Shown here: positions 5,074 through 33,613 of the stretch, in pieces
Layout: each line of letters starts with the position of its first letter
Numbering within the stretch: the first letter of the stretch is position 1
Assembly (NCBI RefSeq): GCF_000512895.1
Contig: NZ_CP007033.1
Coordinates: 1,599,001 to 1,663,000 of the forward strand
Reading direction: 5' to 3'
DNA length: 64,000 nucleotides
From: Dehalobacter restrictus DSM 9455
GTDB taxonomy: Bacteria; Bacillota; Desulfitobacteriia; Desulfitobacteriales; Syntrophobotulaceae
Position numbers and translations under genes: made by a program
Notes under the pieces: generated by a model
Database searches by the model: none
What the model was told of the DNA's origin: nothing
The model's input: the letters and a program-made list of their open reading frames with translations, nothing else

Positions 5074-5282
5074 ATTCTTCAAATATTGTAGCCTTACACA
5101 GATATGGAGTCGAGCGTTAAGTGTCAGTGGCGTTAAGCGAGCAAAAACCGCAGCGTCAAGACATGCCAACGGTGAACATTCTAAAAAGCCCAGAGGTTTT
5201 GGCATGTTAGCGAGGATTTGTGCGAGTAGCCACGAAAACGTGCGAGCGGAATATCTGTGTAAGGCTGCAATTACTCAAGAAT
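5074..5282 (+). repeat. Structured repeat copy C, long imperfect inverted repeat
   Basis: Arms 5074-5105 and 5251-5282 are complementary over about 32 bases with a perfect 17-base block (GCCTTACACAGATAT and flanks). Nested inside are GTGGC/GCCAC (about 5127 and 5228) and CATGCCAA/TTGGCATG (about 5162 and 5198). The inner text AGCGTTAAG..GGCGTTAAGCGAGC resembles copy D (AGCGAAGC..GGCGTAGCGCGGC). Most of the non-coding stretch 4829-5336 is taken up by copies A and C; I see no gene in the rest. Confidence 0.65.
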
Positions 5283-7879: not shown

Positions 7880-8565
7880 ACAGTCATGACCACCCGTAAA
7901 ACGGGTGGCATGCTCTAGCCCTATAAGGGCTTATTGCAAGCCTGCACCTAAAAGTGCTGGCTTGCACTTCGTTCAAGCCATTCAGCATTTATTACCTGGC
8001 TAACCCCTGAAGGGGTCTTCTAACTCTTTGACACTTACCTTATCATTTATCTGATCATGCAGTTCCTGTTCTCTTACATATTTTGCTATGGTCGCTTCAT
8101 TTAGTCCCACAGTACTGACATAGTACCCGGTTGCCCAGAAATGGCGATTGCCAAACTTATATTTCAAATTGGCATGCCGATCAAATATCATCATTGCGCT
8201 TTTTCCCTTCAAATACCCCATGAAACTTGATACGCTCATCTTCGGTGGAATTGATACAAGCAGGTGGATATGATCGGGCATTGCATGCCCTTCGATTATC
8301 TCTACACCTTTATATTTACAAAGCTCCTTTATTATCTGCGTTATATCTGACTTGATCTGCTTATATATTACCTGCCTCCTATACTTTGGTGTAAATACTA
8401 TGTGGTATTTACACATCCATTTTGTGTGTGCTAAACTTTTATCCATAGAAATTCCCCTTCCTTTTTGCTTTTTGATGGCTTGAACATTCATCATTATAGC
8501 GGAAGGTGAATTTCTTTTTTATAATTCTTTGTCTCCACCCGTGTAACGGGTGGTTTTGTGTTCAA
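7880..8565 (-). mobile_element. IS200/IS605-family insertion sequence (tnpA only)
   Basis: A single Y1 transposase gene is bracketed by two subterminal hairpins with identical stems: CCACCCGT-AAA-ACGGGTGG at 7890-7908 and CCACCCGT-GTA-ACGGGTGG at 8535-8553. IS200-type elements have no terminal inverted repeats; imperfect palindromes near each end are recognised by the transposase as single strands. There is no tnpB, so this is an IS200-like layout. Exact ends cannot be fixed without an empty site; the limits given are estimates. Confidence 0.8.
8000..8446 (-). CDS. tnpA: IS200-type Y1 transposase TnpA
   Basis: 148 residues from ATG at 8446 (AAGGAAGGGG upstream; family proteins start MDKSLAHTKW..). 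It contains the HUH motif HIHLLVS (after GHAMPD) and the C-terminal helix with the catalytic Tyr (ATIAKYVREQE), plus KYHIVFTPKYRRQ typical of the family. It catalyses single-strand peel-and-paste transposition. Length and motifs look intact, so the element may be active. Confidence 0.92.
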   Translation of the reverse strand: MDKSLAHTKWMCKYHIVFTPKYRRQVIYKQIKSDITQIIKELCKYKGVEIIEGHAMPDHIHLLVSIPPKMSVSSFMGYLKGKSAMMIFDRHANLKYKFGNRHFWATGYYVSTVGLNEATIAKYVREQELHDQINDKVSVKELEDPFRG

Positions 8566-8583
8566 AACGTATACGTTTTGAAC
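8560..8583. repeat. Perfect 24-bp palindrome next to the insertion sequence
   Basis: GTTCAAAACGTA followed directly by its exact reverse complement, with no loop. It lies seven bases outside the IS200 hairpin at 8535-8553. It may belong to the IS end or be the target region. Confidence 0.8.
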
Positions 8584-8593
8584 TTGCTGAAGC

Positions 8594-8627
8594 ATTAAAA
8601 ATACCGTTGAAATTGAATTTCAACGGT
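8594..8627 (-). terminator. Rho-independent terminator of the SDR gene
   Basis: ACCGTTGAAATT (8603-8614) and AATTTCAACGGT (8616-8627) form a 12-bp stem. On the minus strand it is followed by TATTTTTAA. It lies downstream of the short-chain dehydrogenase gene. Confidence 0.75.
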
Positions 8628-29705: not shown

Positions 29706-31262
<1,557 letters not shown>

Positions 31263-31469
31263 ATATTGGCGAATTAAGAAAAAAAGCAGATTATTAAAGA
31301 TTTTTCATATCATCAGGTAAGATGGTAAAGAAATCGGCAGCTTGTTCAAATTCGCCACCGATGGCGAGTTTGGGACAATCTATTTAGAGGATAACTAAAA
31401 AGCTTAATCTTAACCAAATATAACTATTCGGATTACTGGGCTAGATGTAAAACCAGTATTCTAATAATG

Positions 31470-31548: not shown

Positions 31549-31989
31549 TTAATGATTAAATTCACCAGAGAAAGCCCTCAAGAAATCAATTGGCATCATT
31601 ATGGTAAAAAGCTCCTGAATTTCTGGCGTGTGGAAATCCAAATCACCGGTAACTACGATATCCGGCTGGGCTACTATAGCAGAAACTAAAATAGGTAAAT
31701 CTTTTGGATCTCGTATATATGGAACTGTTACCGTGGAAAGATCTGAGGGAGTATAAGCTATCTCGAATTCAAGTGTTGTAAGAAATTTATCCCATTTACG
31801 GATTATCTTTGGGAATTTGCGTTCAATGACTTCTGAAATTTCCGTAATCGAGTAACTACAAATAATCAAGTGGTGTTGTTCAATAAGTAGAGTTAAAAGT
31901 TTACTGGCAATTGATGATTCTGATAAGACAGCAGATATCAGGATATTTGAATCAACAAATACGCGTAAGGCATTATTTTTTCCGCTCAT
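31549..31989 (-). CDS. PIN domain protein, probable toxin
   Basis: 146 residues. PIN acidic residues in VFVDSNILISA (about 11-21), the ..ITEISEVIERKF helix, RDPKDLPILVSA and VTGDLDFHTPE: four Asp/Glu positions that hold Mg in this nuclease fold. PIN toxins cleave RNA. It overlaps the AbrB-type gene by 17 bases, antitoxin first, the usual order of toxin-antitoxin modules. Lies inside the repeat-bounded island. Confidence 0.85.
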   Translation of the reverse strand: MSGKNNALRVFVDSNILISAVLSESSIASKLLTLLIEQHHLIICSYSITEISEVIERKFPKIIRKWDKFLTTLEFEIAYTPSDLSTVTVPYIRDPKDLPILVSAIVAQPDIVVTGDLDFHTPEIQELFTIMMPIDFLRAFSGEFNH

Positions 31990-32236
31990 TCCACATTTCC
32001 TCCCGGACTACTTCCAGTTCATTAAGAAGGTCTTGTTCGGTAATGCCTTTCTCTTGTGCTTCTGTACTAAGGGCATCTTGTAATTCACGTAAGGCAATTA
32101 GACTGGCCTTGGTAATTACAACTTTACCGTTGTCTTCCAGGAAAGCGATTCTATCACCTTCGTTTAATTTTAATAGGTCCCGAATAGGCTTCGGAATCGT
32201 GACTTGTCCTTTTGAGCTAATTCTTGATATTTCCAT
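31973..32236 (-). CDS. AbrB/MazE-type antitoxin
   Basis: 87 residues. The N-terminal swapped-hairpin DNA-binding domain is clear: ISSKGQVTIPKPIRDLLKLNEGDRIAF, a SpoVT/AbrB signature. The C-terminal part is acidic and helical (LSTEAQEKGITEQDLLNELEVVREEMW) as expected of a toxin-binding tail. Start ATG preceded by AAAGGCGG. Expected to repress the pair and neutralise the PIN protein. Confidence 0.9.
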   Translation of the reverse strand: MEISRISSKGQVTIPKPIRDLLKLNEGDRIAFLEDNGKVVITKASLIALRELQDALSTEAQEKGITEQDLLNELEVVREEMWNERKK

Positions 32237-32348
32237 AACAGAACCGCCTTTCTATTTTTCTTTACATCTTTACTTTCTTTACTTATATTATACTACTGTA
32301 ATAGGAACATGTGCAATTTACAAATTTCTCCTCATTCTCTTAAAATTT

Positions 32349-32439
32349 TTGTCGTTACCGTCTGATATTGATGATTTGAAAATAAAGCAGCAAATAAACT
32401 ACCTATTTTCAAATCATCGGGCCCAGACGGTAACGACAA
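32349..32439. repeat. Hairpin H1 of four
   Basis: Outer stem TTGTCGTTACCGTCTG (32349-32364) with its complement (32424-32439), 16 bp perfect; inner stem ATGATTTGAAAATA (32371-32384) with complement (32404-32417), 14 bp perfect; 19-base loop. Confidence 0.85.
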
Positions 32440-32490
32440 TCGCTTACAAGTTTAGTGAGAGAGCCTTACATTAGGAAAAATCCTTGGGCC

Positions 32491-32583
32491 TATTGGCTTA
32501 CCGCTCGGCATGGGGTGATTTGAAAAAGATAATTGCCTGTAATTCAAGCCTTTTCAAATCATGGCTATGGCGGTAAGCCAATA
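32491..32583. repeat. Hairpin H2 of four
   Basis: Outer stem TATTGGCTTACCGC (32491-32504) with complement (32570-32583), perfect; inner stem TGATTTGAAAAG-like with CTTTTCAAATCA. The outer stem differs from H1 and resembles H4. Confidence 0.85.
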
Positions 32584-32655
32584 ACTCTGAGGTATTTTTT
32601 TATCTTGCTGTCTTAAATATTTAAAATGTTTGCTTAAAAATCCAGCTTCAAATGT

Positions 32656-32751
32656 GCTTGTCTTTACTGTCTGAATGTTGGGCGATTTGAAAATAAGGAA
32701 GGCCAACTACTACAGCTTTTCAAATCGCCGGGACAGACAGTAAAGACAAGC
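32656..32751. repeat. Hairpin H3 of four
   Basis: Outer stem GCTTGTCTTTACTGTCTG (32656-) with complement ending 32751, 18 bp perfect; inner stem GGCGATTTGAAAA with TTTTCAAATCGCC (32717-32729). Outer stem related to H1, with paired changes in both arms. Confidence 0.85.
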
Positions 32752-32800
32752 TCTTAGGGGTTAACTACGAAAGTTTACATCAGAAAAATCCTTAGGCTTT

Positions 32801-32889
32801 TTGGCTAACCGCCCAGCATGGATGATTTGAAAAAATTATTGCTAATAATTCAAACCTTTTTCAAATCATTGGCCATGGCGGTAAGCCAA
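32801..32889. repeat. Hairpin H4 of four
   Basis: Outer stem TTGGCTAACCGCC (32801-) with GGCGGTAAGCCAA ending 32889 (one mismatch); inner stem ATGATTTGAAAAA with TTTTTCAAATCAT. Related to H2. The decayed Rhs gene starts directly after it. Confidence 0.85.
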
Positions 32890-33540
32890 TACTCTAACCT
32901 TGCTATTGAAGGGTCATACATTCTGGCATTCAGGTAGTACAGGCCGGATTCTTTATCATAATAGTAGCCGGCATAGGTAAACGGGTTATCGACTGTCCCT
33001 GTCTGCGAAGTAATATTGCCAAATGCATCATACTAATATGTTGCCTGAATTGTCCCTGTATTGTCAAGAAGGGATGTCACATCACCGTGACCGTTATACA
33101 TATAGTTCAGTGTCTGTCCGCCGACTGTCCGGGCTAACAGGTTCGTTCCATAAACGTTTCTGGCGAATTGGTTTCCTTTGCCGTCCAGTTCAAGGACAAC
33201 CTTATCACCCTCATAGATGAACCGGAGGATGAGAATTGGAAGTCGTTGGTGGCACGCAGACCATCGCCATAGTACGTGTACTCAACCATGGCATTGCCGG
33301 TGTTGCTCTTGATCATTTGGTTGAAAACATCAAAGTACTGGGCAAAGCTGACGAGATCTTCGGCATATTGCGTTGCGCCGTCTATCTCTTGTCCGGGTAT
33401 GAACATCCCGAAATGCGGCGTTGGCGGGTTAACCGGGTCGATTTTTCTTATCTGTTCTGTTAGTTTGCTGGTATTATTGCCGTTATTGTCATAACCATAT
33501 TTTGTGATTGTTTTGAGATCGCCTTCTAGCTTTTATAGGG
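32890..33540 (-). pseudogene. Decayed Rhs/YD-repeat gene fragment
   Basis: Read on the minus strand, fragments in different frames give YD-repeat text: EGDLKTITKYGYDNNGN, VEYTYYGDGLRATND, YEGDKVVLELDGKGNQFAR, LNYMYNGHGDVTSLLDN, YDAFGNITSQTG and YYYDKESGLYYLNARMYDPS. The last is the conserved end of an Rhs core, just before the variable toxic tip. A frameshift near 33225 and an in-frame TAG near 33037 break it; the 5' part and the tip are missing. No function expected. Confidence 0.85.
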
Positions 33541-33583
33541 TTAATGCCTTCATAGAGTTTGGCATGTCTATCATTCTTCTACT

Positions 33584-33613
33584 GTGAGAACTGGACGACC
33601 AAAGTCGTCTAAG
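33584..33613 (+). repeat. Direct repeat, right copy
   Basis: 28 of 30 bases identical to 31233-31262, including codons for CENWTTKVV and the stop, but with no ABC-F gene attached. Marks the right end of the accessory island. Confidence 0.85.

Follow-up and report, generated by a model that had tools for sequence, protein, structure and literature searches.

Rhs genes belong to polymorphic toxin loci, in which a constant rhs body carries a variable toxin tip followed by an immunity gene, with orphan modules and recombination between modules (PMC3482391, PMC3967940). Recombination in the common 5' gene body is the usual explanation for the swapping of toxin tips, and the 3' limit of the exchanged piece is less clear. 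Among palindromic elements of bacterial genomes, REP/BIME sequences and REPINs are dispersed between genes and sometimes occur in pairs (PMC3116915). We found no report in the literature of a hairpin element 3' of Rhs toxin-immunity cassettes. The present analysis concerns an array of four long hairpins in a 64,000-nucleotide stretch of the Dehalobacter restrictus DSM 9455 genome, analysed as a whole and hereafter called the window. Our leading interpretation, to which we give a probability of roughly 45%, is that the array is a duplicated two-hairpin DNA element (H1 plus H2) forming the far end of a constant flank on the 3' side of exchangeable Rhs toxin-immunity cassettes.

Re-examination of window positions 32347–32893 recovered every structural element described in the first-pass annotation, namely four hairpins, an inner stem common to all of them (GATTTGAAAA/TTTTCAAATC) and outer stems alternating between H1/H3 and H2/H4 (Table 1). 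For the 561-nt array region the folding energy is −205.6 kcal/mol, whereas shuffles average −127.7 kcal/mol (z = −13.4; 0 of 100 shuffles), the other strand reaches z = −12.3 against its shuffles, and the single hairpins fold at −34 to −49 kcal/mol each. The earlier proposal that an H1-H2 unit was duplicated with its pairing kept is also supported. H1 and H2 have the inner stem GATTTGAAAA in common, as well as TTACCG in the outer stem, and so themselves look like paralogues; the duplication in the window is secondary, since these paralogues are already paired in other genomes. H1 to H4 are the only intact copies in the complete genome (2,943,336 bp), which also holds a decayed H1-like remnant, part of which (31256–31335) is 91% identical to the copy in a congeneric genome, G001.

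Table 1 Coordinates of the hairpin array and associated features (window positions unless a contig is named)
Feature	Position	Strand	Remarks
Direct repeat, left copy	31233–31262	+	3' end of ABC-F gene
Decayed H1-like remnant	31245–31335	+	Outer left arm missing; left edge of insert; weak covariance model match, E 0.056
PIN-domain toxin gene of vapBC-type pair	31549–31989	-	Beside array; PF13470, E 1.7e-12
MazE/AbrB-type antitoxin gene	31973–32236	-	PF04014, E 7.7e-11
First H1-H2 unit	32339–32588	+	Repeated as second unit, 77% identity over 258 bp
Hairpin H1	32347–32441	+	Type 1
Hairpin H2	32489–32585	+	Type 2
Second H1-H2 unit (H3-H4)	32646–32895	+	77% identity to first unit
Hairpin H3	32654–32753	+	Type 1, duplicate of H1
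Hairpin H4	32795–32893	+	Type 2, duplicate of H2
Rhs gene remnant	32896–33533	-	91% identity to the intact G002 rhs gene; no toxin tip or immunity gene
Direct repeat, right copy	33583–33612	+	28/30 identical
TTGTCC...GGACAA palindrome	L210 7586–7627		
TTGTCC...GGACAA palindrome	L173 2865–2906		
TTGTCC...GGACAA palindrome	L177 9380–9423		
TTGTCC...GGACAA palindrome	L174 8564–8605		
TTGTCC...GGACAA palindrome	31340–31381		Degenerate

Homologues were sought in 61 genomes by DNA search and, with covariance models, in overlapping sets of 74, 83, 399 and 25 genomes. The element is present in two further genomes of the same genus (G002 and G004), degenerate in G001, and also occurs in G037, which belongs to the same order but a different family, and in G234, a member of a distant family within the phylum. 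Several candidates were rejected, including a weak match in G018 (E 3e-5) that proved on reading to be an unrelated palindrome, four chance matches in viral contigs, none with hairpins, and the products of an exact palindrome scan of genome contigs, which looked like AT-rich chance matches. No match to the array was obtained by blastn against phage and plasmid collections.

The position of the hairpins behind Rhs toxin-immunity cassettes is well supported. Hairpins lie beside Rhs/YD-repeat polymorphic-toxin loci in G000, G002, G004, G037 and the distant G234, and for six chosen loci the rough combined chance of their distances to the nearest Rhs core is ~1e-14, an order of magnitude only that assumes random placement. 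The earlier suggestion that the hairpins might be recombination substrates was useful as regards the Rhs region, but gained no support for the local tnpA, which is of the IS200 type, lies 24 kb away and has flanks dissimilar to the hairpins. At the G002 locus orthologous to the window, an intact rhs gene of 2,688 aa with YD repeats and an Rhs core is followed on its 3' side by a DUF6881 gene in the immunity position, a terminator, H1 and half of H2. In G004, H1-H2 stand behind two sets of genes, one an rhs gene accompanied by a gene in the immunity position and the other a separate toxin-immunity-like pair. The G037 hairpin pair has an immunity-like gene on one side and, on the other, the next rhs fragment, itself accompanied by an immunity-like gene. 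The three G234 hairpins are distributed over two contigs; each of these also carries Rhs cores, and on one there are several toxin-immunity-like genes. These immunity assignments are mainly positional, with Pfam matches only for the DUF6881 and SUKH domains. Energy and helix scans for further long hairpins at Rhs loci did not discriminate, since they scored GC-rich coding DNA equally well.

In the window, Rhs homology begins 5 bp from H4, inside the core domain (TIGR03696 match at 32898–33032, cut at model position 44 of 76), and the toxin tip and immunity gene present at the orthologous G002 locus are absent. The Rhs remnant, the array and the vapBC-type pair are together carried by a 2.3-kb insert that adjoins an ABC-F gene at its 3' end and lies between two copies of a 30-bp repeat of that gene end; the corresponding site is empty in G004 and G001. 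A vapBC pair 84% identical over 831 bp occurs in G010, with part of H1 retained upstream of it; all that is left in G002 (L176) is the region upstream of vapBC and half an H1. Two separate observations concern these surroundings. The ABC-F 3' end repeat contains GACGACC-AA-GGTCGTC and resembles an integrase attachment site, the insert itself being without an integrase, and in G010 the vapBC pair and H1 fragment are immediately preceded by a reverse transcriptase gene (RVT_1, E 4.6e-16; L179 6903–8396).

Read in the direction of rhs transcription, the loci of the relatives have the rhs core first, next a variable toxin tip and a variable gene in the immunity position, and after these an intrinsic terminator and the two hairpins, H1 and then H2, each preceded by a spacer. 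Five loci share a homologous module of terminator, spacer and H1, usually also H2, which starts near the stop codon of mostly unrelated immunity-position genes; homology of the flanking module was not seen in G234. The two G004 modules (G004a and G004b) are homologous over a stretch that starts 21 bp after the stop codon and finishes 2 bp beyond H2, whereas homology between G004a and G037 stops at H2. The blocks shared by G037 and the window begin near the edge of H2 (H4) and extend as far as that of H1 (H3), and the sequence common to G001 and G004b starts where H1 ends. Hairpin edges or centres are recurrent sites of homology limits and of rearrangement junctions; the homology blocks end no more than a few bp from the outer edges, and half or hybrid hairpins are found at other junctions (L178, L176, L179, L171 and L284, the first four with halves). 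One of the G234 hairpins appears by eye to be a hybrid of both types.

From this arrangement we infer that the constant rhs core on the 5' side and the terminator-H1-H2 module on the 3' side could act as homology arms for the exchange of toxin-immunity cassettes. The long palindromes, extruded or single-stranded, would be points of breakage and strand exchange, so that junctions would fall at hairpin edges and tips, and pairing would be maintained by selection for this exchange role, by template-switch repair, or by both. The hairpins are likely to be boundary or breakage points of cassette turnover, and the element seems to mark where Rhs cassettes are cut, swapped or lost. The stopping of homology at hairpin edges could also mean that the hairpins are merely more conserved than their flanks. 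Counting against the cassette-flank interpretation, no recombinase was linked to the hairpin loci and no exchange event was observed; also against it are other Rhs loci in G000, G037 and G234 that are without hairpins, and two decayed H2 copies (L175 and L177) without Rhs nearby.

Such decayed solo copies away from Rhs, together with the dispersed, low-copy distribution and the occurrence in distant families with unrelated flanks, would be expected of a non-autonomous, MITE- or REPIN-like miniature element that depended on an unseen transposase for its mobility and accumulated behind rhs terminators, where insertions do no harm. We consider this a live alternative, but unlikely on balance: at five loci the hairpins sit inside the longer inherited terminator-spacer module and not at independent sites, and no partner transposase was found, nor a target duplication at the off-locus copies L175 and L176, which are too rearranged for a clear empty-site comparison.

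Conservation of pairing bears on the remaining alternatives. In a comparison of seven copies of the H1 type, drawn from several genomes, paired cells amount to 96.5%, and both-sided changes occur in 11 of 29 stem pairs, a level reached by 0 of 500 shuffles, with slid controls giving 0–1. The H2 type has the same covariation pattern in weaker form, with some G-U pairs in its outer stems, and in H1 one-sided changes are nearly absent and G-U intermediates few. The matched arm differences reported in the first-pass annotation are therefore real and extend to homologues, and its claim, against which a lack of covariation in homologous arrays would have spoken, was not refuted. Covariation alone is no proof of selection for structure, because template switching can itself yield compensated arm changes (PMC8794818). 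The scarcity of one-sided H1 changes is unusual for RNA and is compatible with either strong selection on DNA pairing or template switching. It is as predicted if the palindromes are old repeats of the rhs flank without function, their arms being kept alike through template switching during replication and their frequent breakage reflecting the instability of long palindromes, and the frequency of decay, loop loss and half copies points the same way. Against this explanation, which we likewise regard as a live but unlikely alternative, the inner stem, loop motifs and outer TTACCG are kept between distant families and the flanks are not. That the array acts as RNA, whether as a transcript with structure, as a block of terminators or as an insulator separating cassette operons, is less likely still: both strands fold very stably, some H2 outer pairs are G-U and the location is between operons, but an ordinary terminator already lies upstream of H1, no U-tract follows the hairpins, Rfam gave no match for them at gathering score, and G-U intermediates are few in H1.

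Other palindromic elements were observed in the same regions. A second long element of ~196 nt (window 5074–5269), with terminal inverted repeats TTGTAGCCTTACACAGATAT/ATATCTGTGTAAGGCTGCAA, has 73–74% identity to long hairpins beside the H2 copies of G004 and G002. Near-perfect palindromes of 38–44 bp (TTGTCC...GGACAA; Table 1), with covarying inner arms, occur near several hairpin copies and at other sites in the genus. A perfect 54-bp palindrome lies beside the solo H2 of G002 (L175 9231–9284), and a half-cut copy at window 8560–8598 adjoins the IS200-type element there. G002 also has two DUF3102 genes, 93% identical (L178 8402–9316 and L176 5754–6704), on contigs that both carry hairpin fragments; one of them is joined directly to half an H2 hairpin.

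Compared with known systems, the hairpins resemble integron attC sites in being long, imperfect palindromes located beside gene cassettes, each built of an outer and an inner stem separated by an internal loop and ending in a variable tip, but their stems are much longer. The paired R boxes of attC (RYYYAAC/GTTRRRY) are absent from the stem base, a single stray GTTGGGC occurring in H3 and no RYYYAAC, and no integron integrase was seen beside the hairpin loci read. Together with the Rfam result, this agrees with the first-pass view that the array fits no terminator, CRISPR or integron pattern. A dedicated, attC-like folded-strand recombination site ending each Rhs cassette, distributed over families of the phylum and served by an unknown recombinase, is a doubtful reading. 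REP/BIME elements and REPINs are similar as dispersed intergenic palindromes, sometimes in pairs, whereas the hairpins here are ~95 nt long with two-tier stems, few copies per genome and a tie to Rhs. MITEs and IS200/IS605-derived elements are likewise short, non-coding and rich in inverted repeats; the hairpins differ in being embedded in a longer inherited module, and the nearby IS200 ends are dissimilar. The covariance models built here provide a sequence handle for finding further such loci, and conserved structured DNA at the 3' side, in distant families, offers a concrete place to seek crossovers. The closest likeness in setting is to the Rhs toxin loci themselves, as the array sits in such a locus with an Rhs core adjoining; published recombination is in the common 5' coding region (PMC3482391, PMC3967940), whereas the hairpins described here lie on the 3' side.
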